64,000 nt of DNA from the NCBI GenBank assembly GCA_963965975.1, contig OZ014412.1:3784501-3848500 (forward strand), read 5' to 3'. Source of the stretch: Xestospongia bergquistia. Its lineage: Eukaryota; Porifera; Demospongiae; Haplosclerida; Petrosiidae. Position numbers and translations under genes: made by a program. This document shows positions 13,989-37,964 of the stretch, piece by piece (positions within the stretch are counted from its first letter, which is position 1; each line of letters starts with the position of its first letter). A model generated the notes under the pieces. The model searched no databases. It worked only from the letters and a program-made list of their open reading frames with translations, and was not told the origin of the DNA.

Positions 13989-16703
13989 ATGCCTTTCAAA
14001 TTGGTACATATAATCATCATCTTTATGTTGTGCCTCCATATTTCAGGTAATTAATTATAAATCAACAAATCCTATTGTCTATTAAAGAATGTAACAACAG
14101 GTCCAATAAAACATTATTATATGGCTTCACATACTAAAATCATTATTAGTATGTAATACTTTACTGACATGCACTTTTGAGGTGATTATTATTACCACTT
14201 TCATTGCAGTACAACTGTTCAAGCATTATTCAAGTAGAACTAGAACTACATCAAAAAAAATTAATTATCCACATAACACATGTGCATTGCTAGTATAAAT
14301 AGCTAGAAAGTACAAGAAGAAAGTATCTGCACCAACATACATGTATGAAGGCCTGGATAAATAATTATGGAGGAGAGTAATGTTCATTGATTTAACTTTA
14401 TTTTCATTAGCTATTCAGTTCATATTTACTCCATCTCCTAACATTGAAGTCTATCAACTAGCACATTACCAATGTTCAGTGGATCATACTGGTGTAAATA
14501 TTGATTGGCTTGTTAATGGAACAGGATCTACTGACAACAAAATTATCCAACTTGGTATTATTACAAGTGGAGCAGGATCATCTAACTCCAGTCTTATCAT
14601 ACCTGGATATCGTCAATATAACAATACAGTAGTGACATGTATTGCCTCAGGACTTTTAGATGTTACAGATCGTAGTAGTCTCTATTACAACTTAGATAAT
14701 ACTACTTTGAGAATACAAGGTAACACAATCTCTGATATATGTCATTAATCTCCTCTCATTAGGTGAACTAGCTGCTGTGAACAATTTGATATGTCATGTA
14801 CAAAGTCAGTATATAAACTGTTCCTGGTCTCCTCCCTTCTCTCTGGTATCCATACCTGGTTATATCATCAATGTTACTTATGGAGGAGAACTAGTTACAC
14901 AGAACACTACATCTTCTATAACATGGCAGTACAACTATCGTCCCAGTCAATTTGGTATATACATATATATAATTAGTATAGTTGGTAATAACTCAGCTGG
15001 AGAAGGAGAGATAAGTAATACATCAGTTGTAGTACCAGAAGGTAAGTGATATAGTTATATTCAATCTCTCTTCATTTACTATATATAGATGAAATTACTT
15101 CCTATAATGTGACTACTAAAATGTTATCAAATGGTTCTTATTTGATCAGCTGTATTATAGAGGTATGTCATAACCTAAGTTATTTCAGATTCATTCTCTC
15201 TCTTAGACTAAATATTCTATAGAGCCATCATTAATATCTCTCAAACTAACTACCAGTAATGGAACTATATTAACATATACTGGAACAGTTACTGATATTG
15301 TTGATAATAAATTTAAAGGGAATATAAATATTGGTACAAATAGAAGACAAAAGTTGACTGTGTCTTTTAGTCTAATATATGACAATAATAATTTTTTAAA
15401 GAATAAGTTACCAGCTAAAATAGTTTGTAAGTTAATATAATTACTTTATTTTGTTATTTACATTCTTTCATTAGCTACATTTGATGTTCAAAATGGCAGT
15501 TTAACAGTCATCAACTCTACTACTGGAGAAGTTTGTTTTACTTGTTATTTTCATGAGGGTAGTCAATCACAAGGATGTTATATTGAATATAACTCACTTA
15601 TAACAGACTACTACAGTGGTAGTATTACCATAGTGAGAACATCAGTAGATACCAGTACTGCTTGTAAATATGTGACAGGAATATATACCAGTAACTATAA
15701 TGTGACATTTTATGATATGGATTATAACAATGTACCATATACTACTGAGTATGCTGTAAAACTGACTAATCAATTAGTGACTGGACTATCTCTTTCTCTT
15801 ACTCCTACACTAACTACTATATCAAATGTAATAGTTACATTATCATCTCTATCACCAGTATCTACTACTCTATGTAGAGAGTATAATAATAGTATGTTAA
15901 TTATTTATATCATCATATATCAATCATATTAATCAATTAGTTACTGGAGTCTCTCCCTTTCCCTATTCAATGACTAATAACAGTATGTCTTCATCATCAA
16001 CTACATTTTGTACAGTCTATGATAATAGTAAGTTATTATTAATATTTTAACATTTTTAGGTAGAAGTATACTGTAACAATTGAGTTCATATTATTACTAC
16101 TACAGTGAGGAGTGTTCAAAGAGATCTAATAATAGGTAATACTAGTATGATAACTTCTAGTCTAGTTAACTAAATACATCACTACACATTGCAGGTAGTA
16201 TTACTGGTAGTCTAGTGGGTGTATCAGTTCTAATACTGGTATGTACTGTACTAGTACTTATAATGATATATAGGATAAGAAGAACTAAGTCACTAAGACA
16301 AGGTAAAGTTAACTACATTTTATATACACACTCTCTTATATAAATCACTACTAGATACTGTACAACATCAAGTGATGACTGATATACCTCAATATGAGAA
16401 TATTACTAATTACTATCATACTACTGAACTAGAGATGACCACATGTGCTGCATATGGTATGATATAATATTAACCAATAACAGTGTGTGTGTGTGTGTTT
16501 ATATATATAGTATTGAGTAATGATCTCACTTGAGTATAATATATTATTACATTGTAGGTACTGTACCATCTCCTGTTAATCCACTATCAGATACTGTCCC
16601 TCCTCAAGTCATACCTCAATATGAGAATGTTGATATTATCACTAATACACTACCTACTACTGAACTAGAGATGAACACATGTGCTGCATATGGTGTGATA
16701 TAA
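13989..16703 (+). CDS. Receptor A: signal-Ig-FN3-linker-Cys-stalk-TM-Tyr tail
   Basis: Eleven exons join in frame to 609 aa: 13989-14046, 14411-14719, 14763-15041, 15089-15162, 15207-15426, 15475-15891, 15941-16027, 16106-16135, 16195-16302, 16355-16456 and 16558-16703. Residues 1-19 are a signal peptide (MPFKLVHIIIIFMLCLHIS). Residues 20-122 are an Ig domain with Cys in YQCSVDH and VVTCIAS and the core Trp. Residues 123-215 are FN3 with NCSWSPP and GNNSAGEGE. Residues 216-313 form a two-exon linker. Residues 314-452 hold the Cys domain (EVCFTCYF, SQGCYIEY) running into a Ser/Thr stalk. Exon 7 adds an extra stalk segment absent from C and D. The TM helix (VSVLILVCTVLVLIMIY) is at about residues 500-516. 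The tail has QYENI, QYENV and a final AYGVI. A surface receptor or adhesion role is inferred. The start is the ATG that opens the signal peptide. Confidence 0.8.
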
Positions 16704-16793
16704 TATTAAACAATAACAATTTGTTCGTGTGTGTTTATATATATAATATTGAGTAATGATCTGACTTGAGTATAATATGTTATTACAATGTAG

Positions 16794-16882
16794 GTACTGT
16801 ACCATCTCCTGTTAATCCACTATCAGATAAAATATTAAAGAAACTTCTTTTAATCAGAGGACTATTTTCATATTGTAAATGA
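16794..16882 (+). other. Truncated third tail exon of gene A
   Basis: After an AG acceptor (tacaatgtag) the frame repeats the opening of the preceding tail exon (TVPSPVNPLSD) in phase 1, then diverges to KILKKLLLIRGL and stops. The sequence after the divergence matches the 3' flank of gene E (28640 onward), so the exon was cut by a recombination joint. It could serve as an alternative last exon if the donor inside the previous tail exon is used. Confidence 0.5.
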
Positions 16883-17009
16883 CAAAGGAATTTGATTGAT
16901 TAAAATGACCTTTTTACGTCTTGTATATAAACTTTTTTTCAATAATATAACATTCATTAATTATTAAAGTGTCATTGTGAGTGTCTATAAAGATGTAGTT
17001 ATATGATAT

Positions 17010-17250
17010 TGAGTCTGTACTCAACCTATTGTGAATACAACAGTGACAAGTTGTAATTTAAAGAACTCTTCTTATTGTTATAACAGTACTAATGATTGCC
17101 ATGCCTCAGTAATACACTTAGATATATTATATCACATTTACTCTCTATTATACTGTAAAGAACACATTAAGATTACAGGTAATCATAGTAACATAAATGT
17201 GAAAACACAACAAAGCAATAGAGAAAACAAAATGACAACATTCCATTGAA
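17010..17250 (+). pseudogene. Fragment of the divergent receptor branch
   Basis: The frame reads NTTVTSCNLKNSSYCYNSTN and then loses similarity. It matches 28815-28890 and the exon at 52. The whole stretch 16845-17100 repeats the 3' flank of gene E (28640-28900). Only an exon stub survives here. Confidence 0.5.
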
Positions 17251-17479
17251 TACACTTAGAAATTATACTACAATATATCACACTTACCTGCTATTACTTA
17301 TCTATCATATATTTTACTGCAATACAATATCATACAAAGTGTACAGTTGGTAGCTAATACAATACTACACTAAAATCAACCATGTAATAATGTGATTATT
17401 TGATTATTACTATATGAGCTACAGCAATAACCAAAGAGCCATAGGAGTCAGACACCCACACAAATTTGATCAGCTGTAT

Positions 17480-17985
17480 TATAGAGGTATGTCATAAGTT
17501 ATTTCAGATTCATTTTCTCTCTTAGACTACATATTGTATAGAGCCATCATTAATATCTCTCAAACTAACTACAAGTAATGGAACTATATTAACATATACT
17601 GGAACTATTACTGATATTGTTGATAATAAATTTAAAGGGAATATAAATATTGGTACAAATGGCAGACAAAAGTTGACTGTGTTTTTAAGTCTAATATATG
17701 ACAATAACAACTTTTAAAATGATAGCTTACAAGTTAAAATTATTTTTAAGTTAATATAATTACTTTATCTGTTATTTATATTCTTTCTTTAGCTACATTT
17801 TATGTACAAAATGGCAGTTTAATAAAAGAGTCTGGACAAGTTCTTTTTAATTGTTATTTTCTTGAGGGTAGTCAATCACAAGGATGTTATATTGAATATA
17901 ACTCACTTATAACAGACTACTACAATGGTAATATTACCATAGTGAGAACATCAGTAAATACCAGTACTGCTAGTAAATGTGGTAT
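17480..17985 (+). pseudogene. Truncated receptor B (linker and Cys exons only)
   Basis: The segment starts inside a linker exon 4 (LISCIIE, donor gtatgt), continues with a linker exon 5 (17525 onward, CIEPSLISLKLTT...) whose frame ends early at NNNF then a stop, and an exon 6 from about 17793. That exon keeps YFLEGSQSQGCYIEYNSLIT but the first CxxC is altered to LFNCYF, and it breaks off after TASKCG at about 17982. There is no signal peptide, Ig, FN3, TM or tail. It is a dead partial copy between genes A and C, closest to genes A and D in exon 5. Confidence 0.75.
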
Positions 17986-18716
17986 AACTTTAGATTTTAT
18001 CATATCACTTAAATTGTTGGATTTGAGTGACAACAATGTCTTTTATATATTTGTTAGATTATAGAGTGTGGATATATATATATAAATATCATTAATCATG
18101 TTACATATATTCTTACTATAAAATATGAACTCAATATAACCAGACTATTATCATTATAAAAAATTACCTCAAAACAACATGACTACTTTTACTCACTTGT
18201 TTCAATGGTTACTGGCAAAATGTCTGCCTTTTTATCAACATATGATCATTTTTGAACATTAAGTAATTAACTATTTAAAATATATTCAACTCAAACAACA
18301 CTTACTTTATTAATTTTGTTACATATAATAATAACAATTGATAATATTTGTCATATAATTTAGTAATTATAATATATACTACACAAACTATTATGTCAAC
18401 TTTTAATATAATATATACTATATTACTAACTGTTATCAGTATGTTACTATAATATGTAGTGATGTAATAATGATGTAATGATAAACTCAGTCTGGATCTA
18501 GTATTGTGTGTTATATGTGTTTTTAATATGTTAATAAAGTGTTGTTCAATTTGACAATATCTTAAATAGACAAGTTATACAAATATATTTTATTTATAAA
18601 AAACATACTACTGACACTACTGTGAATATTTTGTCAAAATAAACAAAACAGATTTATATAAAATATACGTCATATAGTGTATTATCACTGTATTTGTAGT
18701 GATGTAATGATGTAAT
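17986..18716 (+). promoter_or_regulatory. Upstream region of gene C, shared with gene E
   Basis: No exon is seen. About 18010-18330 matches 25230-25500. The last ~200 bases before the ATG (with TGTTAATAAA, AAATAAACAAAACAGATTTAT and TGATGTAATGATGTAAT) match the region before gene E (about 25980-26180). Conservation up to the start codon suggests that these two paralogs share a promoter as well as a signal-peptide exon. No clear TATA box was picked. Confidence 0.5.
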
Positions 18717-20962
18717 ATGGATCTAGTGAAGACAACATGGCTACTACTGATAGTGTTAGTATCTATTATATTAAAATGTACAGGTATGATTATATTAATA
18801 ACTAATGTACTATTTTATTTAGTTTTATTATATAGCTGTTCAGTTCATATTTACTCCATCTCCTAACATTGAAGTCTATCAACTAGCACATTACCAATGT
18901 TCAGTGGATCATACAAAAGTGAGTATTAGATGGATTGTTAATGGAACGGATTCTGATAATGAAACCATTATCAAACTTGGAATTGCTACAAGTGGAGCAG
19001 GCTCAATTAACTCCAGTCTTAGAATACCTGGATATCCACAATATAACAATACAGTAGTGGTATGTATTGTGTCAGGACTTTTGGATGTTACAGATCCTAA
19101 TAGTCTCTATTACAACTTAGATAATTCTACTCTGAGAATACAAGGTAACACACTCTCTGATATATGTCATTATATTTCCTCTCATTAGGTGAACTAGCTG
19201 CTGTCAACAACTTGATATGTCATGTACTAAGTCAGTATCTAAACTGTTCCTGGTCTTCTCCCTTCTCTCTGGTATCCATACCTGGTTATATCATCAATGT
19301 TACTTATGGAGGAGAACTAGTTACACAGAATACTACATCTTCTACAACATGGCAGTACAACTATTGTCCTAGTCAAGTTGGTAACTATACAATTATTGTA
19401 GCTGGTAATAACTCAGCTGGAAAAGGAGAGATAACTACTACATCAGTTGTAGTACCAGAAGGTAAATGATGTAGAGCGTTTGATTTGTCAACTACTTGAT
19501 ACTAATAGATAAAATTACTAACTATAATGTAACTCCTAAAAGATTATTAAATGACATATATCTGATCAACTATATTGTAAAGGTATGATAACCTGTACAT
19601 AAACATCATATACCTTTTCATATATTTTATTTAGACTATGTATTCACTACAGCCATCATTAGTATTTATCAATATAACTAATAGTACTGGAACTTCATTT
19701 ACTGTTGATGGAAGTGTAGACAATTTTGTTGGAAATAATTTAATTGGAGATATAAGTATTGACATGACTGGTAAACAAAAATGGAGTATTGTTTTGACTT
19801 TAGGATACAACTGTAGATTTCTTAATTCACCAGTTAAACTATTTTGTAAGTTTATTTAATCATATTAATTGTATTATTATTTTATTAGCTACATTTGATG
19901 TACAAAATGGGAGTTTAACAGAGGAGTCTGGCCAAGTTTGTTTTACTTGTTATTTTCTTGAGGGTAGTCAATCACAAGGATGTTATATTGAATATAACTC
20001 ACTTGCAACAGACTACTACAGTGGTAATATTACCATAGTGAGAACATCAGTAGATACTAGTACTGTTAGTAAATGTGTGACAGGAATATATACCAGTAAC
20101 TATAATGTGACATTTTATGATATGGATTATAACAATGTACCATATACTACTGAGTATGCTGTAAAACTGACTAATCTGTCTTTGACTGGACTATCTTCTA
20201 TTCCTACTCTAACTACTACATCAAGTGTAGCAGTTATTATTACATTGTCATTAATACCTAATGTTATATCATCATCTCCATCACCTACTACACTATGTAC
20301 AGACTGTGATAATAGTAAGTTATTATTAATAATTATTATAACAATTGAGTTCATATTATTACTATTACAGTGAGGAGTGTTCAAAGAGATTTCATAATAG
20401 GTAATAGTACTATTATAACTTCTAGTTTAGTTAACTAAATATATCACTACATATTGTAGGTAGTATTATAGGTAGTATAATGGGTGTGTCAGTTCTAATA
20501 CTGGTATGTACTGTACTAGTACTTATAATGATATATAGGATAAGAAGAACTAAGTCACTAAGACAAGGTACAGTTAACTACATTTTAAATGCACACTCTC
20601 TTATATAAGTCACTACTAGATACTATACAACATCAAGTGATGACTGTTATACCTCAATATGAGAATATTACTAATTACCATCATACTACTGAACTAGAGA
20701 TGACCACATGTGCTGCATATGGTATGATATAATATTAACCAATAATAGAGTGTGTGTTTATATATATATTATTGAGTAATGATCTCACTTTAGTATAATA
20801 TATTATTACATTGTAGGTACACTACTATCTCCTATTAATCCACTAACAGATACTGTCCCTCATCAAGTTATACCTCAATATGAGAATGTTAATATGATCA
20901 CTAATACACTACCTACTACTGAACTAGAGATGAACACATGTCCTGCATATGGTGTGATATAA
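18717..20962 (+). CDS. Receptor C: signal-Ig-FN3-linker-Cys-stalk-TM-Tyr tail
   Basis: Ten exons give an uninterrupted 581 aa frame: 18717-18783, 18836-19144, 19189-19461, 19509-19582, 19635-19845, 19889-20314, 20371-20400, 20460-20567, 20620-20721 and 20817-20962. Residues 1-22 are the signal peptide (MDLVKTTWLLLIVLVSIILK), shared with gene E. The Ig domain (23-125) has YQCSVDH, IRWIVNG and VVVCIVS. FN3 spans 126-216. The linker (217-311) is of the second type (SIDMTGKQKWSI), shared with gene G and not with neighbours A and D. The Cys domain and stalk (312-453) carry QVCFTCYF and SQGCYIEY. The TM helix is at about 471-488, followed by the basic stop-transfer RIRRTKS. The two tail exons carry QYENI, QYENV and the terminal AYGVI. 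It looks functional. Many N-glycosylation sequons lie in the ectodomain. Confidence 0.82.
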
Positions 20963-21986
20963 TATTGATAGTACATCATACATCTGACATTATATAATTT
21001 AATATTATAATCATGATAATTTTATAAGTCAAATTGACTATAAAATCAAAATATGAAGGTGACCATAGCAATGTACTGATGATAATGTTATTAAAGATAA
21101 TTTATGAAGATGTTCTTAAGTGAGTATATAGTGTAATGATAATTTGGTAATATCCTTCTAGACTTAAGTTAAGAAGGTGATTATTTAACAGTTTAAATGT
21201 ATAAGTCAAAGTAAGTCAACTCAATCTACATTGTGTTATAATTTATTTTTTAATAATTATATATTAGTATTAGTTTTGGTACACTAAACACACTAATGAT
21301 AACACTATGATATTAAATGTTACAGCTACATGTAGTCCTGTCACTGGATCCTTATTTCAGTGATTAGGTTATACTATAATAGATAAAGAAATATAACTAT
21401 CCTTATTTCAAACCATTTTTATATTATGATAAAATAAAGTATTAGTACATTTTACTTTGGACAAAACAAAGTGATTTTGTTCATAATGAATTTTTGCAAA
21501 TCTAAAGGATTTTCTTAAAATAATAATAGTCCATGACTTTGTTCAGAGACTCTAAAGAAAAAAGAATTTCTAATAAAAATTGAGTTTCCAAGAAAGAATA
21601 TAAATTTAGTATCCACAAAATTTAATTATTTGATTTGAACACTATTATGTGATATTATCATGTATGCAAACAGTAATCTGTAAACATATATAGCAACTTT
21701 TATCCCTGGTCCCCGGTATAAGTAAAGTTAAATTGTATAGTACGCTTGTTTATTACAAGGTAGGATGCCCCTCCTATTTTGTTTTTTATTTTAAATAGAT
21801 GATATGAAGCAGCTATCTGGTATCGCGTTACAAGTTCGTCATTACCGCCTTACCCTTAGAGAGGAAGGTGGGAACGCCAGACTAGAGTGTTGTTTGATAT
21901 AGAAAGTTTCAATCTACTTATGAAAGTTAAATCTTGCTCTAAAGTCAGTTTATTGTGTATACCTTGGATTCCTCCCTAATAAAGAA
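20963..21986. other. Intergenic C-D, with gene D upstream region
   Basis: The first 130 bases repeat the 3' flank of gene D (24531 onward). About 21105-21330 repeats 9940-10670. The final 300 bases (from about 21690) are richer in G+C, with GGTCCCCGG and CGCGTTACAAG, unlike the other spacers, and may be the promoter of gene D. No exon seen. Confidence 0.5.
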
Positions 21987-24530
21987 ATGGTACTCTTAGT
22001 ATTGTCTGCATTCTACATCATTGGTCTGCTTGTCAACGTCTTGGGTATGACAGTTACTATATATTAATATAATAATTATGTTTTGTCTATTAACCTGAGC
22101 CTACATATATTGTATACATTTATACTAATTTGTTAAGAACAATATATCATAAAACATTTCTAATTATATAGCTGTTCAGTTCATATTTATTCCATCTCCT
22201 AACATTGGAGTCTATCAACTAGCACATTACCAATGTTCAGTGGATCATCCTGATGTGTCTATTATTTGGTTTGTTAATGAAACACGTTCTACTAAAAATG
22301 ATAGTATTCAACTTGGTATTGTTACAAATGGAGCAGGATCACCTAACTCCAGTCTTACCATACCTGGATATCCTCAATATAACAATACAGTAGTGAGATG
22401 CCTTGCTTCAGGTTTTGTTGATGGCAATCTTTATACTAACTTTGATAATGCTACTCTAAGAATACAAGGTAATACATTCTCTGATATATGTCATTATATC
22501 TGCTCTCATTAGGTGAACTAGCTGCTGTCAACAACTTGATATGTCATGTACAAAGTCAGTATATAAACTGTTCTTGGTCTCCTCCCTTCTCTCTGGTATC
22601 CATACCTGGTTATATCATCAATGTTACTTATGGAGGAGAACTAGTTACACAGAACACTACATCTTCTACAACATGGCAGTACAGTTACTGTCCCAGTCAA
22701 TTTGGTATATACACATATACAATTACTTTAGCTGGTAATAACTCAGCTGGAGAAGGAGAGATAACTACTACATCAGTTGTAGTACCAGAAAGTAAGTGAT
22801 ATGGTTAGATTTGTGTTTGTTAAATTTTGGGTAGATTCTGAGACCAAGAGAACTATGCAATTTAGACTATTGATATGAAGCCTATGCATCCATGCCTGCA
22901 TGAAGGCTTTGTTATACTCTCGGGCTTGTAGTTTCCATTACAACAAATCTATAACAACTAGTTGTGTCAAAAAATTAAAGAAATTCTGGTATGAAACTAG
23001 GAAATATAGTTACATGTCTGACCAATAAAAAATTGCTTTAATATGCTATGTATGCTTTAACTATAGACCAAATTGCTTCCTATAATGTGACTCCTAAAGT
23101 CTTGTCAAATGGTTCTTATTTGATCAGCTGTATTCTAGAGGTATGTAATAACCTAAGTTATGTCAGATTTATTTTCTTTCTCAGACTAAATACTTTATAG
23201 AGCCATCATTAATATCTCTCAAACTAACTACCAGTAATGGAACTATATTAACATATACTGGAACTGTTACTGATATTGTTGATAATAAATTTAAAGGGAA
23301 TATAAATATTGGTACAAATGGAAGACAAAAGTTGAATGTGTCTTTAAGTTTAATATATAACAATAACAACTCTTTAAAGAATACGTTACCAGCTAAAATA
23401 ATTCGTAAGTTAATATAATTACTTTATTTTGTTATTTACATTCTTTCATTAGCTACATTTGATGTTCAAAATGGCAGCATAATGGTCAACTCAACCACTG
23501 GAGAAGTTTGTTTTACTTGTTATTTTCTTGAGGGTAGTCAATTACAAGGATGTTATATTGAATATAACTCACTTATAACAGACTACTACAGTGGTAATAT
23601 TATCATAGTGATAACATCAGTAGATACCAGTACTGCTAGTAAATGTGTGACAGGAATATATACCAGTAACTATAATGTGACATTTTATGATATGGATTAT
23701 AACAATGTACCATATACTACTGAGTATGCTGTAAAACTGACTAATCTGTCTTTGACTGGACTATCTTCTATTCCTACTCTAACTACTACATCAAGTGTAG
23801 CAGTTATTAATACATTGTCATTAATAACTAATGTTATATCAATATCATCTCCATCACCTACTACATTATGTACAGACTGTAACAATAGTAAGTATTATTA
23901 ATATTATAACAATCAAGTTCATATTATTACTACTACAGTGAGGATTGTTCAGAGAGATCTGATAATAGGTAATACTAATATGATAACTTCTAGTCTAGTT
24001 AACTAAATATATCACTACATATTGTAGGTAGTATTACTGGTAGTCTAGTGGGTGTGTCAGTTCTAATACTGGTATGTATTGTACTAGTACTTATAATAAT
24101 ATATAGGATAAGAAGAACTAAGTCACTAAGACAAGGTACAGTTAACTACACATTATATACAAATTCTCTTATATAAGTCACTTATAGATACTGTACAACA
24201 TCAAGTGATGACTAGTATACCTCAATATGAGAATATTATTAATTATCATCATACTACTGAAGTAGAGATGACCATATGTGTTGCATATGGTATGATATAA
24301 TATTGACCAATAACAGTGTATGTGTTTATATATATATTATTGAGTAATGATCTCACTTTAGTATAATATATTATTACATTGTAGATACTGTACCATCTCT
24401 TGTTAATCCACTATCAGATACTGTCCCTCATCAAGATATATCTCAATATGAAAATGTTGATATGATCACTAATACACTACCTACTACTGAACTAGAGATG
24501 AACACATGTACTGCATATGGTGTGATATAA
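21987..24530 (+). CDS. Receptor D: signal-Ig-FN3-linker-Cys-stalk-TM-Tyr tail
   Basis: Ten exons splice to 582 aa: 21987-22044, 22172-22468, 22513-22791, 23067-23140, 23185-23404, 23453-23887, 23939-23968, 24028-24135, 24188-24289 and 24385-24530. The signal peptide (MVLLVLSAFYIIGLLVNVL) matches no other copy here. The Ig domain (20-118) has YQCSVDH, IIWFVNE and VVRCLAS. FN3 (119-211) is nearly identical to that of gene A. The linker (212-309) is of the first type (NIGTNGRQKL), as in A. The Cys domain and stalk (310-454) match C closely, including the tail of the stalk SPSPTTLCTDC. The TM and two tail exons follow the A/C pattern with QYENI, QYENV and final AYGVI. Intron 3 is 275 bases, enlarged by unrelated, more G+C-rich sequence. 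The frame is intact throughout. Confidence 0.82.
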
Positions 24531-25926: not shown

Positions 25927-25961
<35 letters not shown>

Positions 25962-26180: not shown

Positions 26181-28622
26181 ATGGATCTAGTGAAGACAAC
26201 ATGGCTACTACTGATACTGTTAGTATCTACTATATTAAAATGTACAGGTATGATTATATTAATAACTAATGTACTATTTTATTTAGTTTTATTATATAGC
26301 TGTTCAGTTCATATTTACTCCATCTCCTAACATTGGAGTCTATCAACTAGCACATTACCAATGCTTAGTGGATCATACTGGTGTGAGTATTACTTGGTAT
26401 GTTAATGGAACAGGTTCTACTAACAAGGAGATTATTCAACTTGATATCATCACAAGTGGAGCAGCATCTGCTGCTTCTAATCTTACAATACCTGGATATC
26501 CTCAATATAACAATACAATAGTGGGATGTGATGCATATGGATCAGTGATTGGTTATACCAACTTTAGTGAATCTACTCTGAGAATACAAGGTAACATACT
26601 CTCTAATATATGTCATTATATCTCCTCTCATTAGGTCAACTAGCTGGTGTCAACATTGAAGTCTATCAACTAGCATATTACCATTGTTCAGTGGATCATA
26701 CTGGTGTGGGTATTACTTGGCTTGTTAATGGAATGGTTTCTACTAACAATGACACTATCCAACTTGGTATTGTTACATATGGAGCAGGATCATCAAGCTC
26801 CAGTCTTATCATACCTGGAGATCCTCAATATAACAATACAGTAGTGACATGTAATGCTTTTGGATTTGGTATAATTAATGGTAGTAATTATATCAATACT
26901 AGCACAGCTACTTTGAGAATACAAGGTAACACACTCTCTGATATGTCATTATATCTCCTCTCATTAGGTAAACTAGCTGCTGTCAAGAACTTGACATGTC
27001 ATGTACAAAGTCTGTATATAAACTGTTCCTGGTCTCCACCCTTCTCTCTAGTATCCATACCTAGTTATATCATCAATGTTACTTATGGAGGAGAACTAGT
27101 TACACAGAACACTACATCTTCTACAACATGGGAGTATTGTCCCAGTCAATTTAGTAACTATACAATTAGTGTAGCTGGAAATAACTCAGCTGGAGAAGGA
27201 AAGATATGTACTACATCACTACATGTACCACCAGGTATTATCACTATGGTTACTCATGTATAATTTATTACTTTGATTTTAGTTAATATAAGTAATTTAA
27301 CAACTACCTTTATCAGATCAGTTAATAGCTGGATACTAAATATAACAATATATGATTTGGTAAGTTACATTATGATATCTCTAGATACCTCATGTTTGTG
27401 ATATTAGGAACTTCAACAATGTCCACATACAATGGAGTCAGCTCAACTAAATGTTGTTATATACAATGAAGATAATTCTTCTATATTTTTAAACAATCCA
27501 ATAATTCTAACTGATGAAAGAGTTATTGTTGTTACCATCTATATTGTAAATATAACTGATAATAAAATATGGAAGACAAGAGTGAGTTTATCATTACCAA
27601 GTGGAGCTGTTATTGATGTAACAGAATCAACTGTACTAAGTAAGTACATTATAAATGACTTATAAATATTTTCTCATTCATTAGGTACATATGATATTAC
27701 TGAAGCTACCCTATATAATGACCTAAGTAATATTGGTAGAACATGTTACAGCTGTCATTTTATAAGAGGAGCTATTGTTAAAGGTTGTCTTATTTCATTA
27801 ACTTCCTCTACCTACAGTAGTAACATATCATTGATGTGTTCTCCAGTATGTAGTAGTACAGTAATTGGATGTACATATGATCTACCTAGTGGTATATATA
27901 ATATGTATGTATATGATATTGAAGAGGAGGGTAGATTATCAGATGAGTGGGCAATATCATATACTAATATCATTATTACTGGATTGGAACCAACTTATTC
28001 ATTTCTTGAAGTGACTAATTCTATATCCACATGTCCTGTTTCCATAGTTACTATTACTATTGGAACATATGACTGTTTGACCAGTAAGTAATCATTAGTA
28101 CATTTGTTATCATTATTATATCTCTATGTATGTTATATAGATGATACACAAGTTAATAAAGTATTTATAACAGCTGCTAGTATATTAGGAGGTAATAAAT
28201 ATGACAATAATAAAAACACTAGTAGTTATATTATTATAAGTTAGTAAATAGTTAACTCTCAAAATGAAAACTGTTGTCATATAATTATATTATTTTGTAA
28301 ACTGTATAATATATTACTGTAATATATAGGTAGTCTAGTGGGTGTGTCAGTTCTAATACTGGTATGTACTGTAATAATACATATAGTGATATGTTGGATA
28401 AGAAGAACTAAGTCTCTGAGACAAGGTAATACTAACAGTGGAGACAGTTTGTAAATGATATTATCTATTATAGGTACTGTACCATCTCCTGTTAATCCAC
28501 TAACAGATACTGTCCCTCATCAAGTAATATCTCAATATGAGAATGTTGATATGGTCACTAATACACTACCTACTACTAAACTAGAGATGAAGACATGTGC
28601 TGCATATGGTGTGATAAAATAG
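26181..28622 (+). CDS. Receptor E: signal-Ig-Ig-FN3-divergent Cys domain-TM-Tyr tail
   Basis: Ten exons give 639 aa: 26181-26247, 26300-26590, 26635-26925, 26968-27234, 27283-27359, 27408-27639, 27685-28083, 28141-28191, 28330-28425 and 28474-28622. The signal peptide is the gene C type. Two Ig domains (23-119 and 120-216) are encoded by separate symmetric phase-1 exons. The second exon opens with GQLAGVN, the start normally used by the FN3 exon, then switches to IEVYQLAYYHCSVDH. FN3 spans 217-305. The linker (306-408) and Cys domain (409-541; RTCYSCHF, IVKGCLISL, CSPVCSS) are strongly diverged from those of A, C, D and G, but align by exon position and by the C-x2-C ... GC pattern. The TM exon (VSVLILVCTVIIHIVICW) and single tail exon (QYENV, AYGVIK) return to the common type. 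The frame is intact, and this is the most distinct ectodomain of the set. Confidence 0.8.
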
Positions 28623-28639
28623 TAAAGAATCCTCTTCTT

Positions 28640-29660: not shown

Positions 29661-29712
29661 ATGGTAAGTATTCATGATATCAAGAAATAAGAATTGTTAT
29701 TAGTACCACCAA

Positions 29713-30100: not shown

Positions 30101-31356
30101 TGTAGCTATTACATTAATATTGAAGTACAATGTTTGAATGACTCAGTGTACATATATAGTACATGTATGCAAGCTATTTCTAATTGTATGAAATTGTATG
30201 AAGATGATGTATTCAAACATACATATCACAATGTTTCTTTCCAATAGACTCATTCTCTCCTTTGAAACGTGTACAACATTCTATTGTTTTTGTATGTTCA
30301 GTATTGAGTTACTGGGTTCAGGTTCCTGTATTGTGTTAACGCTAAAAGTTGTGTCATTTTCATACAATTTCATACTTCATCTAATTAATATTATTGATTT
30401 ATATGTTATATGATTAAACTTGTTTACAAATATAACACTAATGACCATTTAAAATGACATCAATAGAATGTCAGTTTTATAAAATCATAATCAATTACTT
30501 AAAGTAATTCAAATTTTGCCTTCTTCTCTGTTTGGTATACTCCTTTAACTAAATAGTGAGTGATTTACTATTATGGTTTTAAATTCAATCATTCATATAT
30601 TTTGACAAAGTTATAAGATGAATATAATGAACTGATTTACTACTGTATTAAAGGATTATAGAAGAATATACATTAATATGACCATAAATCAATTTAGAAC
30701 TTTCAAGGTCACAAGGTCATTTTATATACAGTATATGTACAATATAATATTATATATACATTGATCATTGTGCTAGTTTCAGTTTCTTTCAATTTTATCA
30801 TTGTTTATAATATAAATATAACAAGTAGTTTTTTCCTCTGTAAACTATTGGTTCTAGTCATTGACCTTATAAGGATATTTCATTTGTATTAATGTTGAGA
30901 GTGGGTACAGTAATATGTGATTAATGATATTATTGTCATAATCTTTATTGTCTGTTGCAGTTAAGTAACTCTATTTCCTTTCAATGTTTTCCTCAATGAT
31001 TCAAGAGCTTAGGTAAGCCTTCATTCCTTTTTTGTTGTCAGCCTCACCTATACTCTTACTCTTACACCTGTATTATAACTAAATACATGTTTCTAGCTGT
31101 CATTATTTTATGTATGGATGCATATAAGGTTGCAAATTTAGTAAACTTCATATCATAACAGATATCTAATGCAATAGTACACTATTCTAGTGTATAAAGG
31201 ATATACATGGAAATAAGTGAGATTATCATTACCTTTACTGCTAGTATTACTGGTTAGCACTGTAACTAAATATAGTTACACATTTTTCTAATACTGATCA
31301 GTAGAAAGTGAATAACAAGTCACTAATTAATTAACAAGATCACATAATAATAATTA

Positions 31357-31776
31357 TTAGAAAAAAATGAAACAATAAGTCAAGTACATAACAATTATAC
31401 AATGATTAAAATATAACATATTATGATGAGGTATATCATAATGTAATATGGTAGTAGTATCCTCTATATAGCGATGAACTAGACATGTTTGACTTCCAAT
31501 AATAAAGTTATATTGAAGACATAAACTGTTATCAGAGATATTGACAATAGACAGATCTAGTAGATCAAATATACCTATTGTATGTAGTAATATGAGATTA
31601 TAAATATAAATATTTGACATACTTGTCTTACATTGAAGCACTTGACCACTGTTATATACTACATACAGTAGTGTAGTGTAGTATTTATATAGATCAAGTC
31701 TCATTGTAACTATTACAATAATATTGGATAAAGTATAATTGAATGGCTCAGTGTGCATATATGTACATGCATACAA
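31357..31776 (-). pseudogene. F-branch receptor fragment, minus strand, copy 2
   Basis: This duplicates 29713-30100 (the repeated block is about 29705-30190 and 31327-31800). Here the frame is open from 31776 to 31357, giving 139 codons that include MRLDPYKYYTTLLYVVYNSG and SLCLQYNFIIGSQTCLVHRY. The splice acceptor before GIFDLLDL (exon high end 31574) is still present, so the long open frame may simply be unspliced sequence. No secretion or membrane signals are attached. Confidence 0.5.
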
Positions 31777-31799
31777 GCCATTCCTAATTATATGAAGAT

Positions 31800-32855
31800 G
31801 GTATATTTGAGCGTATCCAAGAACTTAGATCTTTCTTTTATTGTTGCCACCTTCACCTAAATACACCTGTATTACAACAAACTAAATGTTTATAGCTGTT
31901 ATTATATTATGTATGAATTCATATAGAGCTATAAGTTTAGTAAACCTCATATCATAACAGATAGTTAATCCAACAACACACTATTCCCTATGTATAAATA
32001 GTACACATAGAAATTGATGCAATTATCATTACCTGTTCTTTTGAGGCTACTATGAGTATATTTCTGATCAATAGTTTATCTTCTATTTCATTAAGAGTGA
32101 ATTGTGTGGAACATTGATAAATTAGTCAGACTACATTACCATGAACCTATCTGACATTAGTATTATAATAGGTCTTCTGTTAAGAGAACTTTTATGACAT
32201 AATAATAATTATTATAAATTGTACTATATATCAATGTAATTATATTGCTATTAGTTCAAAGGCATATAATGAAGCAATGAATTATGATAACTATCATATC
32301 AATTAATTTTAACAAATAGCACTAGAAGACTCTGTATACTAATATTTTTATGACACGTTAGATTTAAGATATAATTCCATTATAGAAGAAAAAAAGCTTT
32401 AGATGTTTATCTGTTCTGGAGTGTAAGCTATTGTATCCTGTTGTGGATTGTACAAGTCAACTCAAGAACTGAAGCCATGGAGGTATGATATCTTCAGTGA
32501 TATATATTATAATTATAAACTATTAATTGATGATCCATAGTAATGTTATTGAACAAGCATACAATGGTAATGATCATTTTCAATATGTCTGTAGATTTAT
32601 ATTGAGAAATTTATTACTTCAAAATTTAAAGTAGAAATAAAATAAGTCAATTCAGTATACATTGTGGTTATAATTTGTAAGAATTAGTCAATTTTTAGAA
32701 GTGTTTGTTTGTGTCTGGTTAAATGAATATTCATTAATTTATAGGAACATTATAAATTCATTATAGATCTATATTATCATATATTGGTATGTATAATCTT
32801 TTATCACATTTAGTTGACATTTTATTTATATACTGAATAATTTTAATGTTATCAG
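31800..32855. other. Intergenic
   Basis: No clear exon. About 32420-32700 repeats a module also seen at 9840-10100 and 62740-63000, centred on GAACTGAAGCCATGGAG followed by a gtatga donor-like site. In the other copies the equivalent reads AACTGAAACTATG then taagta. Confidence 0.45.
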
Positions 32856-32990
32856 TATGTTGTGACAAAACCTGGACATATTGTCAAAGCTGTTCGTTCT
32901 GGATATCTTTGTACCAAACAAACTAAGTGGTGCCCTGAGTCTTCATATCCACACAAACACGTTTGCTGTGACATCATTATCACACCTTAG
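32856..32990 (+). CDS. Candidate small Cys-rich terminal exon
   Basis: After an acceptor-like ttatcag the frame is open for 44 codons to TAG, reading YVVTKPGHIVKAVRSGYLCT, then KQTKWCPES and HVCCDIIITP. Its G+C is higher than its neighbours' and four Cys lie within 25 residues, as in small secreted peptides. A possible first exon is the ATG at about 32476 (ATGGAG then gtatga). The splice phase between them is unproven. I do not recognise a family. Confidence 0.3.
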   Translation, partial: YVVTKPGHIVKAVRSGYLCTKQTKWCPESSYPHKHVCCDIIITP

Positions 32991-33369
32991 ATCATGTACA
33001 AGGTATTTGGTTCTATAATGATATCTACATATACAACTATATACTGTACAAATACATTGAAATCAAATCAGTTGAAAAGATTTCTAAAATACAAATTGTA
33101 TTTGTAATGGAATCTTCTATTTGTCATTGAACAGTGTAGTGATATACATATGAGATTAACAATAATCTAATCTTCTATAGTATATATATTATCCCAGCTT
33201 TACTCTACTATGTTTGTCATGATTTCCACTATAACATCACATACTTGATAAAACATATGAAGGTAGAGAATTGATTTTGTACAGCTAGTTAATGAACTAT
33301 CTAATTGTTATATATAGAGTATAGAAATTGTTCAAAACTAACTATGGTGCATACAAATTAGTGACATCA

Positions 33370-33640
33370 CTATATCAATATACTAACGTAACAATGTAAC
33401 AGTATACCATTGTACTAATGTAATAGTGTGCCAATATACCAATGTATCAGTGTACTAATGTACCAATATAACAGTATATCAATGTGCTAATGTACTGATA
33501 TAACAATATACCAACATATAAATTTGCCAATGTGCTGATATACCAATGTACCAATGTACTATTGTAGCAACCTTATCAATAACAAGTGTACCAATATATC
33601 ATACCAATGTACTAATGTATTGATATACCAATTATACCAA
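33370..33640. repeat. Imperfect ~10-11 base minisatellite
   Basis: Many degenerate units of the type CCAATGTA, CTAATGTA, CCAATATA and ACAGTATA run head to tail for about 270 bases. Unit length and sequence drift, so it looks old. The short open frame running through it is a by-product of the repeat. Confidence 0.8.
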
Positions 33641-34680
33641 TATATGTCTCAAAAATGTTTACAATACTATAATACTAGAAGAAATTTGAATCATTTTCTA
33701 AAATTAGCACTATTGAAACAACTAAACAAGAATTGATCAGGCAAATTGAAAGCTAGTTACAAAGATGTTGATATGAATAGTTAGTGTCATTATTGATCCT
33801 ATCATCTGTTAGGATAATGTTGATAAAGATAATAATCATATATAATCTGTTTATAAAAATATACAATGAATTTGATGTATATTTTATGTTTTGTATTCCA
33901 TATATCGGTATATACGTATAAATAGAAGCGAAGGAAGCTAAAAAGAGACTAGTATATAGAAAGACGGGTGAATCTATTCGAAATTGGATCTTAAATATCA
34001 GCAGTTTACGTTGAAACCCTCCATGAAATTTAAGAAGTATGTACAGCTACCTTATAATATAGCCAGCATTTTATTTTATCTAAATGTCTTTAAAAACTGT
34101 AACCATCTTTGCTTAATTTTACACGCAGCATATTATATAAGTGCATTGTAACAAAACTGATCATGATTGTTTTATTATGGTTATACAGGTTCCATATAAC
34201 AAGATTATGATAGAAAAAGTTAATATCATATCATTTTAATTGCTAATGTATAATAGATTGACTGTTAATTGTAATTATGGTTAATGATATTATTTCTATT
34301 CTTAAGCATGACAGGCCAAGGTTGTTGCTATGGTTTCATAATTTCACTTCAATATATAGTGTGGTAATTTTAAACAATTTACCATATTCCTTGAACAGAG
34401 GCCTAGGCTTCTATTTCTTTTCAAAGATTTTTGACCAGGCCTTTAAACAATGGAAGCCTTTATTTCCAGCAACATATCATTAATCTATAACAAAGATTAC
34501 ACTAAACTTTCCCACAGCAGCTTGCTGGAATATATTTCATTAGACAATCAATAGGTGTAAGTTTGAAAGAAGCAAAAAAAGACATCCATTCAGATATTTT
34601 GAAACAATAAAGAATAGGAACAACACAAGTGCACATAACTAGATGTGGGTTATTATGTCTTAATATGAGATCATGCCTCT

Positions 34681-34740
34681 ATTTACAGCTGCTTGAATTA
34701 CCCAAGCAGCTGTAAATAGCTGTACCATAATGGTACAGCT
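34681..34740. repeat. Two adjacent inverted repeats
   Basis: Left hairpin: 34681-34695 (ATTTACAGCTGCTTG) pairs with 34703-34717. Right hairpin: 34718-34728 (AGCTGTACCAT) pairs with 34730-34740. Both arms share the AGCTGTA/TACAGCT core, and a further AGCTGTACCATTA follows. This could be a foldback element or MITE remnant. It is not a prokaryotic terminator. Confidence 0.75.
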
Positions 34741-34858
34741 GTAAACAGCTGTACCATTATTATTACCCTTAAAAAGTAATCTAAAGTTTATTTAAGACTA
34801 ATATGATGGGAATTTGGATTATTTACAGTTATAATGAATAAATCATGTTTAAAATACA

Positions 34859-34909
34859 TTAAAGTGTATATAATATGAATACATAGTATTCATATTATAT
34901 ACACTTTAA
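34859..34909. repeat. Perfect 24-base palindrome
   Basis: Arms 34859-34882 and 34886-34909 are exact reverse complements (TTAAAGTGTATATAATATGA at the outer end) with a three-base ATA loop. Such a perfect arm length is not expected by chance, even in AT-rich DNA. Function unknown. Confidence 0.9.
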
Positions 34910-35163
34910 CAGTGTTAGCCTTGGCACAGCATCTTATTTTGACTAAAAATTAATAGCTCTAAACACTACTAACATAAATAGTCATTTCAATATCATTAAT
35001 AATCAAAACACTATGATATTTACTTTTGCATCAAATAATTTTAGTTAATTCAAATTGTATATACATCATATTAGTTAAATCAACCAACAATGATGCATGA
35101 TTGAAATGTAATAATTTAGTTATGTGTACTTTTCTTAGATTTTAGCCTGTTAAGCTTAAGAAG

Positions 35164-37539
35164 ATGCCTTTTAAAGTGGCACATATAATCTTCATTGTCC
35201 TTACATTGTGCTTCCAAATTTCAGGTAAATAATTTTCTACTAATAAAAATTAAATTTTGTTGCTGCATTCTAAAATCTATATGTTTTGCATCCAAATTGT
35301 TCAAATAAATATAATTCTTACAGCTTAAAGTACAACTTTATTATAACATAAAATTAATTATATGTGATCTTACACTTGGAGGTAATTCTATTGGAATACA
35401 ACTGTTCAGGCATTTTTCAAGCAGATCTAGACCAGGAGTAGAATTAGAACTATAGTCTTAATATTTATGACTAAATGCATAGTAATAATGATTCAGGAAT
35501 TATCCTCATATATGTCTATACATATGTATATATATAAAAGTATGATGTGCATAATTAACCAGAGAACACTGAGTAAGAAGTAACAAAGAAGCAAATATAT
35601 ACTAACAACTTTAATAGTGCTCTTATAGTAATAAGAGCAAATAATGGATTTGTACACTTATATAAACATGATAAGGAATAATGTTCTCCATTTTTTATAT
35701 TTTAATAGCTGTTCAGTTCATATTTATTCCATCTCCTAACATTGAAGTCTATCAACTAGCACATTACCAATGTTCAGTGGATCATTCTAGTGTCAATATT
35801 GGTTGGAATGTTAATGGCACAGCATACACTCATAATGAGATTATACAACTCGGTATGGTTACAACTGGAGGAAAACAACATTCAAATCTTACAATACATG
35901 GATATCCTCAATATAACAATACAGAAGTGATATGTATTGCCTCAGGACTTTTGAATGCTATGGATCCTAATAGTTTCTATTACAACTTTGATAATGCTAC
36001 TCTGAGAATACAAGGTAACACACTCTTTGATATATGTCATTATATCTCCTCTCATTAGGCGAACTAGCTGCTGTCAACAACTTGATATGTCATGTACAAA
36101 GTCAGTATATAAACTGTTCCTGGACTCCTCCCTTCTCTCTGGTATCCATACCTGGTTATATCATCAATGTTACTTACGGACGAGAACTAGTTACACAGAA
36201 CACTACATCTTCTACAACATGGCAGTACAACTACTGTCCCACTCAATCTGGTAACTATACAATTAGTGTATCTGGTTATAACTCGGCTGGAGAAGGAGAG
36301 ATAAGTACGAACAAAATATCAGCAGGTATGTGATGTTAGACCTTATTGAATTTTCAAACTGGCAGGCTGTCATAGATGTATCCACTTATATCCATGTCAC
36401 TCCTAAAAGATTACCAAATAACACATATTTGGTCAACTATATTGTAGAGGTATGATAAGGTGCCAGCAGTAACATTATACATCCCATCTTCTGTAGAGTG
36501 ATTATTCCTTACAACCATCATCAATATCTCTCAATTTAACTAATAGTAATGGAGTGATACTCATTTTTAACGGAAGTGTAGATGATTTTGTTGGAAATAA
36601 GTTAATTGGAAATATAAGTATTGATATGATTGGCAGACAAAGGTGGAGTATTGCTTCAATTTTAAGATACAACTGTAGATCTCTTAAGTCACCAGTTAAA
36701 ACATTTTGTAAGTTATTTTATTTGTACTTTAATAATTTTATTTTTACATTAGCTACTTTCAATGTACAAAATGGTAGTTTAACAGTCATTAACTCTATTA
36801 CTGGAGAAGTTTGTTTTACTTGTTATTTTCTTGAGGGTAGTCAATCACAAGGATGTTATATTGAATATAACTCACTTATAACAGACTACTACAGTGGTAA
36901 TATTACCATAGTGAGAACATCAGTAGATACCAGTACTGCTAGTAAATGTGTGACAGGAATATATACCAGTAACTATAATGTGACATTTTATGATATGGAT
37001 TATAACAATGTACCATATACTACTGAGTATGCTGTAAAACTGACTAATCAATTAGTGACTGGACTATTTCCTACACCTATTTTTTCTACCTTATCAAGTA
37101 TGTCTTTAATGAGTAGCACTAAATCATCATCATCTCCATCATCTACACTTGGTAAGAGTAAGTTACTTCAATCATTATGTCATACTTGTTGTAGTGTATA
37201 TTACTACAGCAGGGAATGTTCAACGAAGTCCACAAGTAGCAACTATTGGTATGTTTCTTATATGTAGTACTCTTATTTAAGTGTTTTCTAGTTGGTGGAG
37301 TAATTGCTGGATTTGTAATAGTATTGATATTTATTTTTGTATTAATCATTGGAATTATATTAATTTTGAATGGACCACCCAAGGGAAGAAATTGTAAGTT
37401 TGATGCATTAATATTAATTGTCAATGTCACACATATAGGTAAATGGATACTGCCAAAAGAATACCCTAACTTGGAAGATCATACTACTGTCAGCAATATT
37501 ATTAACAACCCAGATGAGGTTAACAAAGACACCTCATGA
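35164..37539 (+). CDS. Receptor G: signal-Ig-FN3-linker-Cys-stalk, distinct TM and tail
   Basis: Nine exons join to 521 aa: 35164-35224, 35709-36014, 36059-36325, 36376-36449, 36497-36707, 36753-37157, 37210-37248, 37292-37393 and 37439-37539. The signal peptide (MPFKVAHIIFIVLTLCFQIS) is the gene A type. The Ig domain (21-122) has YQCSVDH, IGWNVNG and EVICIAS. FN3 spans 123-211. The linker (212-306) is the gene C type (SIDMIGRQRWSI). The Cys domain (307-441) has EVCFTCYFLEGSQSQGCYIE and is almost identical to those of A, C and D. The TM exon differs: GGVIAGFVIVLIFIFVLIIG, and the tail is short, with EYPNLED. A CAGCAG acceptor at 37204-37209 and two possible donors at exon 6 (37151, 37157) leave minor splice ambiguity that keeps the frame. 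An alternative last exon is listed at 37888. Confidence 0.8.
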
Positions 37540-37887
37540 TTAAGTGTTATTCATAATATTAAAAAATGGATTATAATTGCAATCTCAATTTGTATATACA
37601 ACAACATTGTCATATATCATTAAAATTTTTATATAAGGAGTTATTCAAACAGCTCTCAATTCTTGTATTATTGATATCTTACCAGTTTAATCCATTTTAA
37701 ATGTTTTTATTTTATCTGAATATTAATTATCGAAGTAATTATGTGATGTGATTGTTTATTCTTACTTCATGTTTTAATTCCCTCATACATTAGATATTAA
37801 CAACTACTCAACATAACCAGAACAATTATACTGATATAACTCTATCATCTAATGGTCCTGTTGCTCCTCCTGATCTTCATTCTACAG

Positions 37888-37964
37888 TACAATATAGTAC
37901 AGTAGTACACGAGGCACCAACCTGACTTTGCTGACTAATTAAAAGTACAACTCACTTAATGACA
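37888..37964 (+). other. Alternative last exon of G, scar of a lost death domain
   Basis: After tctacag the phase-1 frame, joined to the TM exon of G, reads LQYSTVVHEAPT and stops at 37925. The first part matches the tail exon of gene H (VPYSTAVHE). The bases after it, CTTTGCTGAC through CTCACTTAATGAC, match the extreme 3' end of the death-domain exon of H. The rest of the tail and the death domain are missing, so an internal deletion fused the two ends. Usable as a short alternative tail. Confidence 0.6.

Follow-up and report, generated by a model that had tools for sequence, protein, structure and literature searches.

The Alr receptors of Hydractinia are polymorphic, bind homophilically and exert genetic control over fusion and rejection; they form a gene complex, one for which both genetics and binding are known. 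Sponge aggregation factors, which are candidate recognition molecules of sponges, carry Calx-beta and Wreath domains. The mechanisms of invertebrate allorecognition, including those of sponges, are called a mystery in passages of PMC12065747, which describe Alr as immunoglobulin (Ig)-like receptors with tyrosine motifs, and the FcoR receptors of Botryllus as Ig receptors in a locus, built of V-Ig, sushi and C2-Ig domains, with tails that carry either an immunoreceptor tyrosine-based inhibitory motif (ITIM) or a hemITAM, the motif being swapped by splicing. The vertebrate paired Ig receptors (KIR, LILR, PILR and FcR-like) are described in passages of PMC3533184 as very similar ectodomains joined to alternative tails, one of them with ITIMs, and vertebrate ITIMs as recruiting SHP-type phosphatases. 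For sponges, passages of PMC4772301 and PMC6208332 report SRCR genes combined with Ig and fibronectin type III (FN3) domains, and Ig-TIR receptors, which have an extracellular Ig domain (PMC6208332); no cluster comparable to the one described below appears in these passages. Here we analyse a 64,000-nucleotide stretch of the genome of the demosponge Xestospongia bergquistia (the window; C2:3784501-3848500), which holds five genes, A, C, D, E and G, for receptors with an Ig domain on FN3-like stalk domains. We judge it rather probable that the cluster to which they belong is a diversified, paired recognition-receptor system, with about 1.5 Mb of tandem type I receptors.

By working likeness, the vertebrate paired receptors and the ITIM-bearing allorecognition receptors of Botryllus and Hydractinia appear to be nearest. 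As in vertebrates, similar ectodomains are joined to alternative tails, one with ITIMs, and SHP-type phosphatases are encoded in the same genome. The vertebrate activating partners have a short tail, a charged residue in the transmembrane (TM) segment and an ITAM adaptor, whereas the sponge partner tail has QYEN[VI] repeats, and a V-like tip on an FN3-like stalk is also unlike the vertebrate receptors, so that the likeness is one without demonstrated sequence kinship. Compared with Alr, by description only, the sponge cluster has more than 100 open Ig exons, shuffling of loop segments and alternative tails. A Pfam scan of A, E and G (E being given without its second Ig domain) found no match to sushi, TIR, Calx-beta or Wreath domains, in which these receptors differ from Botryllus FcoR, from sponge Ig-TIR receptors and from aggregation factors; also in contrast to FcoR, tails alternate between genes. 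The cluster is not assigned as a member of any named system, because the charged TM of the vertebrate receptors and the sushi domain of those of Botryllus were not found. No report of such a cluster was found in searches of an open-licence library, covered by listed titles and abstract openings.

Exon chains of five receptors and extent of the cluster

The five genes lie in the same orientation between positions 13989 and 37925, with open chains of nine to ten exons and GT-AG introns. Their parts, all on the plus strand and in window coordinates, are as follows (g numbers denote Ig exons, MP the membrane-proximal domain and MPE one type of it, and P1 to P3 downstream cassettes).

13989..16692: gene A (g31), spliced open frame of 571 amino acids
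13989-14046: gene A, signal peptide; 14411-14719, Ig; 14763-15041, FN3-like
15089-15162 and 15207-15426: gene A, linker (P1 cassette); 15475-15873, MP and stalk, donor uncertain
16106-16135: gene A, stalk; 16195-16302, TM; 16355-16456 and 16558-16692, tail (QYENI, QYENV)
14497..14595: V1 of the gene A Ig exon (C to D strands), from the family alignment and recombination analysis
14641..14706: V2 of the gene A Ig exon (after the F-strand Cys; F-G loop, CDR3-like, that is, like the third complementarity-determining region), from the same analyses
17526..18046: fragment B, linker L2 and MP remnant without Ig or FN3, stop inside L2
18717..20951: gene C (g32), spliced open frame of 572 amino acids
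18717-18783: gene C, signal peptide; 18836-19144, Ig; 19189-19461, FN3-like
19509-19582 and 19635-19845: gene C, linker (P2); 19889-20296, MP, donor uncertain
20371-20400: gene C, stalk; 20460-20567, TM; 20620-20721 and 20817-20951, tail
21987..24519: gene D (g33), 554 amino acids spliced from the Ig exon on
21987-22044: gene D, signal peptide; 22172-22468, Ig; 22513-22791, FN3-like
23067-23140 and 23185-23404: gene D, linker (P1); 23453-23869, MP, donor uncertain
23939-23968: gene D, stalk; 24028-24135, TM; 24188-24289 and 24385-24519, tail
26181..28608: gene E (g34 and second Ig exon g35), spliced open frame of 618 amino acids
26181-26247: gene E, signal peptide; 26300-26590, Ig1; 26635-26925, Ig2; 26968-27234, FN3-like
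27283-27359 and 27408-27639: gene E, linker; 27685-28083, MPE (P3 cassette)
28330-28425: gene E, TM; 28474-28608, tail (QYENV)
35164..37925: gene G (g36), spliced open frame of 556 amino acids plus stop
35164-35224: gene G, signal peptide; 35709-36014, Ig; 36059-36325, FN3-like
36376-36449 and 36497-36707: gene G, linker (P2b); 36753-37151, MP; 37210-37248, stalk
37292-37393: gene G, TM of the G type; 37439-37518 and 37794-37925, tail (YPNL, YTDI, ITIM VQYSTV, stop)
35795..35890: V1 of the gene G Ig exon, from the family alignment and recombination analysis
35936..36001: V2 (F-G loop) of the gene G Ig exon, from the same analyses
37794..37925: gene G ITIM tail exon, TG type (VQYSTV)

The order of modules was signal peptide, V-like Ig exon, FN3-like exon, linker, MP domain with Ser/Thr stalk, TM and tail, gene E carrying two Ig exons. 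The donor of the Ser/Thr stalk was a pick among two or three candidates, gene G has a weak second-last donor (GTTAAC), and for A, C, D and E the position of the 3' end was loosely placed, reading past the last tail exon meeting a stop within a few codons; gene D was joined from its Ig exon onward, with the signal-peptide exon placed separately. The original prediction had also paired the modules of these genes, and its pairs were borne out for the signal peptides (MPFK type in A and G; MDLVKTTWLLL in C, at 18717, and E, at 26181), for the linkers (A and D best matching L2, C and G best matching L2G, E being a third type) and for the TM and tail (A, C, D and E with a TM and QYEN tail, G with a distinct TM and tail). 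The signal peptide of gene D, MVLLVLSAFYIIGLLVNVL (21987-22044), was held to be unique; it is so among the five, but it recurs upstream of g18 at C2:3686412, 120 kb off. Most exons have symmetric phases (1-1), the departures being the two exons of the linker domain (1-0 and 0-1) and the last tail exons of G. For gene C, MSTFNIIYTILLTVI was dropped as a signal peptide; MDLVKTTWLLL lies closer to the Ig exon and is common to E and other P3 genes. Fragments like B also adjoin g12 and g16.

The five genes belong to a larger cluster of about 1.5 Mb on C2. The genome comprises 146.5 Mb in 21 contigs, and a genome-wide query with the Ig exon, in which the best 150 of 169 candidates were scored, placed 144 rows on C2, five on C9 and one on C14. 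At least 80 amino acids of open frame were present in 127 of the 144 C2 rows, and these open exons span 2.736-4.261 Mb, 83 on the plus and 44 on the minus strand among the matches listed. A dense stretch of 258 kb (C2 3.600-3.858 Mb) was read and its Ig exons were numbered g01 to g37. All 37 are on the plus strand, as are the 38 Ig rows of a separate profile search; 35 of the 37 had an open conserved end, and 31 of 35 FN exons had an open frame. The two Ig exons in which an open conserved end was not found, g06 and g24, were left out of the Ig alignment.

The naming of the domains as Ig and FN3 is weakly based. The B-strand and F-strand Cys residues are both present in all 35 aligned Ig exons and the C-strand Trp in 34 (g17 is without it), but Pfam scores fell below the curated cut-offs, at 17.4 bits against 30 for Ig_3, 13.1 against 21.8 for PF00047 and 17.5 against 25 for fn3. 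The AlphaFold2 model of the Ig domain had five strands and a mean pLDDT of 66; its Foldseek matches, 50 rows being listed, were mostly antibodies, Fabs and nanobodies, with template modelling scores (query) of 0.42-0.58, and none of these rows reached E ≤ 0.001. The loop that joins the final two strands of this model is predicted to fall in V2. The best of five models of the MP domain had a pLDDT of 86 and seven strands (the others 82, 51, 39 and 36), and its best structural matches included many FN3 domains and monobodies, a single one of them at E ≤ 0.001. Pfam matches to Ral, Syndecan, Ig_J and BatD were below cut-off and were taken as chance or weak beta-sandwich matches. No homologue of protein A was found at E ≤ 0.001 among 7994 scored candidates, and a profile of E, C and G had two matches at E ≤ 1 among 7992 candidates, both on one ENA contig (643,386 bp): P0121, with Ig and FN domains and up to 73 % identical to the cluster Ig exons, and P0122, with linker and MPE, which both apparently read through introns. 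The search needs shared words, so that few matches do not show absence in other sponges. By sequence, the PDB gave a single row, a lipocalin at E 0.66, and Rfam and tRNA searches of the window gave no match.

Recombination between and within exons

The modules had been predicted to have different histories, and this was upheld by approximately unbiased tests, since all five tree comparisons rejected congruence. Mutually rejected were the trees of Ig and FN (29 genes after removal of duplicate identical Ig sequences), of the 5' and 3' halves of the Ig exon, of Ig and MP, of FN and MP, and of MP and the T2 tail exon (34, 22, 22 and 17 genes, respectively). A single tree as the history of the family was abandoned, because recombination makes such a tree meaningless. 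In 30 of 31 cases an FN exon and its nearest relative are followed by the same cassette, compared with 20 of 33 for Ig exons (mean of shuffles 11, with 11 of 2000 shuffles as high); thus FN exons travel with the cassette, whereas Ig exons are partly free of it. One 600 bp patch at 97.2 % identity, which takes in the Ig exon and the greater part of the FN exon, is shared by g11 (P3) and g37 (P2), and no further shared block of at least 60 bp was found in the 9 kb compared. Sequence comparison shows that signal peptide, Ig exon, cassette and tail have been reassorted between copies.

The Ig exon is conserved in its A-B, E and G strands and variable in two segments: V1, which runs from the C to the D strand, and V2, which follows the F-strand Cys immediately and varies in length as well as in sequence. 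Identities in V1 and V2 were poorly correlated (0.18 over 595 exon pairs). The exons g09 and g22, for example, are 100 % identical in V2 and 64 % in V1, and g14 and g34 are 97 % identical in V1 and 45 % in V2. In the pairwise homoplasy index (PHI) test, none of 1000 permutations was as low as the observed value (g35 was excluded from this test, from the trees and from the substitution rates, and included in the 595 pairs). At a 15 % threshold, 34 exons comprised 12 V1 types, 11 V2 types and 22 combinations, a number above the 12 of full linkage and below the mean of 28.9 for free shuffling. These patterns indicate that V1 and V2 segments recombine between Ig exons.

The number of synonymous substitutions per site (dS) was 0.32 in V1 and 0.46 in V2, compared with 0.12 in strands A-B, 0.22 in strand E, 0.15 in strand G and a range of 0.03-0.19 across the other exons, although the loop values could be inflated by alignment of length-variable loops. 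Old variation would therefore seem to have been retained in the loops, with the remaining sequence younger or homogenized. Among 19 Ig-exon pairs at least 90 % identical, which overlap, nonsynonymous and synonymous differences numbered 130 and 57 in V1 and V2, and 60 and 56 elsewhere.

Alternative tails and SHP-type phosphatases

Two kinds of tail with tyrosine motifs were found, which, with the cluster of 127 open Ig exons and the mosaicism inside the Ig exon, goes beyond the original prediction. In the 258 kb stretch the tail exons of most genes repeat QYEN[VI], and YEN[VI] occurs in 55 of the 61 non-TG tail exons there. The TG-type tail exon, which is the type of gene G, matches 41 sites in the genome, every one on C2. 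A strict ITIM ([IVLS]xYxx[ILV]) is present in 17 of the 19 that were read, and both [IL]xYxxV and VxYxxV, with tyrosines about 22 residues apart, in 10 of the 19. In the TG alignment (18 rows, 17 distinct, one of the 19 being dropped as under 105 bases or with a stop) the second tyrosine is present in 18 of 18 tails and the first in 17. When the next tail was sought after each of the 127 open Ig exons, using for the QYEN type the best 150 of 205 candidates, at least 78 exons were followed by a QYEN tail, 23 by a TG tail and at most 26 by neither. TG tails are mostly on the plus strand (35 of 41); QYEN tails among the matches listed, which lie in the same cluster, are on the plus strand in 59 cases and on the minus strand in 84.

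Near-identical Ig exons are joined to either tail. Of the TG genes in the 258 kb stretch, the four that possess an Ig exon each have a QYEN partner with both V1 and V2 at least 93 % identical (g27-g12, g30-g19, g36-g19 and g37-g11, or three cases, g30 and g36 being near-copies); a partner with both segments at this level exists for 10 of the remaining 30 Ig exons. The similarity of the paired ectodomains extends to the whole in g12/g27 and g19/g30, and in g11/g37 it is limited to the Ig exon and the larger part of the FN exon. In g12/g27, g07/g30 and g19/g30 the sequences are 92-99 % alike over the span from 3 kb upstream to the stalk portion of the MP exon, where homology ends, 9-44 bases past the MP domain match. 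No such break was found at the MP stalk of the same-tail pairs g12/g16 and g30/g36. Homology in g28/g37 (87 %) ends 113-158 bases past the MP domain match; this pair, with V1 at 66 % and V2 at 85 %, was rejected as a near-identical ectodomain pair and counts for the shared cassette only. Past its first 60 or so bases the MP exon is 94-100 % alike in g27/g30 and g27/g37 even though the sequence upstream is only 48-72 % alike, and it could therefore be a hinge for tail exchange.

The QYEN[VI] motif, which we take to be of the SH2-adaptor type (pYxN), suggests that the QYEN tail activates; by analogy with vertebrates, the ITIM tail would inhibit via SHP-type phosphatases. Genes of this type are present. 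The genome has 81 SH2 matches, and a tandem array at C3:1265457-1283528 contains five open frames of 532-567 amino acids, apparently intronless, each with a pair of SH2 domains and a single tyrosine phosphatase domain, and a broken SH2-SH2-phosphatase copy between the open frames. Further such frames lie at C3:0.916 Mb (521 amino acids) and C7:8.318 Mb (629 amino acids). Linkage of the domains in one frame was deduced from position and frame length; the one gene that was read was SH2-SH2-phosphatase with HCSAGIGRTG. This is the make-up of SHP-1 and SHP-2. Mammals have two SHP-type phosphatases. The array may have co-expanded with the ITIM receptors. Elsewhere, a run of open frames of 398-500 amino acids with one SH2 domain each, possibly SH2 kinases, was observed at C6:1622265-1697212, and large runs of tyrosine phosphatase domains, among the matches listed, at C5:0.44-0.78, C9:1.99-2.15, C10:0.97-1.25 and C2:6.83-6.93 Mb.

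Readings of the cluster and further features of the window

As a paired recognition-receptor system, the cluster would work as follows. A V-like Ig domain (two in E) would be presented at the receptor tip on FN3-like stalk domains. Its C-to-D region and F-G loop would be kept as a pool of old variants and reassorted between copies, probably by ectopic recombination or gene conversion between tandem copies, for which conserved sequence, for instance that of the A-B and E strands or of the membrane-proximal exon, may provide anchor points. Near-identical Ig exons joined to an activating QYEN[VI] tail or to a tail inhibiting via SHP-type phosphatases would set up a balance that lets the cell tell matching from non-matching or microbial ligands. 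The original prediction of a recognition-receptor complex gains from the scale, the clustering, the apparently old diversity in two loop segments and the alternative tails; the sign of signalling, the ligands and the self/non-self role itself we infer. Its sequence features make the cluster a strong candidate system of self/non-self recognition in one of the animal groups that branched earliest. For the receptors behind sponge self/non-self recognition it offers a single mapped locus in which loops and tails are named, together with candidate effector phosphatases, which makes recognition in an early-branching animal directly testable. Germline shuffling of Ig loop segments parallels, in a very distant lineage, the vertebrate placement of variability in complementarity-determining regions, and paired tails in sponges, if true, suggest that ITIM-balanced recognition is ancient or has repeatedly evolved. 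We advance only tentatively the fuller proposal of a sponge histocompatibility and immune complex of more than 100 germline Ig receptor copies, in which gene conversion reassorts CDR2- and CDR3-like cassettes separately, recombination in the conserved membrane-proximal exon joins ectodomains to ITIM or QYEN tails in turn, and expanded SHP-type phosphatases read the ITIMs; if true, loop-segment shuffling and the logic of paired ITIM receptors would date from close to the root of the animals.

Several results weigh against the paired-receptor reading. Broken members are present in the 258 kb stretch (two of 37 Ig exons and four of 35 FN exons), Ig type is still partly tied to cassette, as the 20 of 33 cases above suggest, and the loop dS carries the uncertainty of alignment already given. 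The ratio of nonsynonymous to synonymous rates (dN/dS) does not rise above 1 in V1 (0.94) or V2 (0.80), and it is high beyond the loops as well, at 0.52-0.99 in other exons and at 1.47 and 1.25 in the T1 and T2 QYEN tails; positive selection in the loops is therefore unsupported, and relaxed constraint is a possible source of the elevated values. Stronger constraint on the ITIM columns was not found within the TG tail (0.88 compared with 0.81 in its remainder), and the tail exon of g27 is without a strict ITIM. The TM cores of the QYEN receptors, which have longer tails, contain no K, R, D or E, so that the charged TM of vertebrate activating partners has no counterpart in them. In the same-tail pair g07/g19 the intron that follows the MP exon contains a gap, the tail exons still matching, and TG genes of different groups are unlike downstream of the break in the 650 bases compared (g27/g30, g30/g37 and partly g27/g37), so that the TG tails do not represent a single recent copy.

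A narrower form of the paired-receptor reading, in which pathogens or symbionts drive the loop pool and allorecognition plays no part, has close to an even chance. Vertebrate paired receptors often bind microbial ligands according to passages of PMC3533184, distinct microbial consortia in sponges are described in passages of PMC4772301, and the receptor anatomy fits this role and allorecognition equally. Ig-like and FN3 genes are, however, commoner in low-microbial-abundance sponges in passages of PMC6208332, from which a large set near Xestospongia is unexpected; since the domains of the cluster score below the Pfam cut-offs, they would escape such counts.

The other narrower form, an allorecognition complex with homophilic or receptor-ligand recognition of self alleles, is possible, though we do not lean towards it. 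It would fit the very large single cluster, the loop diversity and the ITIM-type tails, such tails being present in the allorecognition receptors of Botryllus and Hydractinia in passages of PMC12065747. Against it, the same passages cite aggregation factors as another sponge candidate, and the passages of PMC5450542 on an Amphimedon grafting transcriptome contain no mention of immunoglobulin, fibronectin or receptor.

Turnover by birth and death of adhesion or matrix receptors, with conversion and duplication as neutral by-products of tandem repetition, is unlikely. Tandem copies recombine anyway, broken copies are present, and relaxed constraint fits the dN/dS values, which are 0.5-1 for most exons and, at low divergence, exceed 1 for the QYEN tails. 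The scaffold strands, however, are constrained (dN/dS 0.53 in A-B, 0.36 in E and 0.16 in G) and the Ig exons have kept their Cys (35 of 35) and Trp (34 of 35) residues. Moreover, dS peaks in the two loop segments, the exons on either side being alike, and the alternative tails recur on near-identical Ig exons; it is because the oldest diversity appears to lie in the loops, and because near-identical Ig exons recur with either tail, that we consider a neutral origin the less likely.

An assembly artefact, in which haplotypic duplication or misjoined copies produced the array and mosaics, is very improbable: 26 self-alignments of at least 2.5 kb at 92 % identity or more occur within the 258 kb, and g30/g36 and g01/g20, about 99 % alike, could be alleles rather than separate copies, but 22 of the 26 are at 92-98 %, blocks of at least 98 % identity, in which a few copies may be uncollapsed alleles and which to that extent count against a paired-receptor cluster too, cover only 36 of 258 kb, mosaic switches lie inside single exons among many partners, and frames and splice signals are mostly preserved.

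Outside the five genes, the window contains the following features.

5885..5998, plus strand: further TG-type (ITIM) tail exon, no Ig exon detected upstream
8698..8952, plus strand: MPE-type membrane-proximal domain
47956..48081, minus strand: lone QYEN tail exon
51091..51360, plus strand: MPE-type domain, partial
52967..53257, plus strand: divergent MP domain upstream of a TG tail
54775..54885, plus strand: TG-type tail exon without a strict ITIM
60172..60447, plus strand: MPE-type domain, partial

At 5885-9090 and 51088-60534 of the window, MP or MPE domains and TG tail exons occur with no Ig exon detected, as divergent or decayed relatives of the receptors. Outside the receptor cluster, matches to a CxxC...GC membrane-proximal domain, 35-39 % identical to MPE and mostly on the minus strand, lie at C2:440242-768057 and at 1.89 and 2.32 Mb. 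The cox1 gene is on contig C21 (18,997 bp), read with code 4, and its protein is identical to the representative of a cluster named after a Xestospongia muta entry, in keeping with a demosponge close to Xestospongia; COX1 matches in a nuclear contig (C6:3154917-3200446), some with TAA or TAG stops, are probably inserted mitochondrial DNA.

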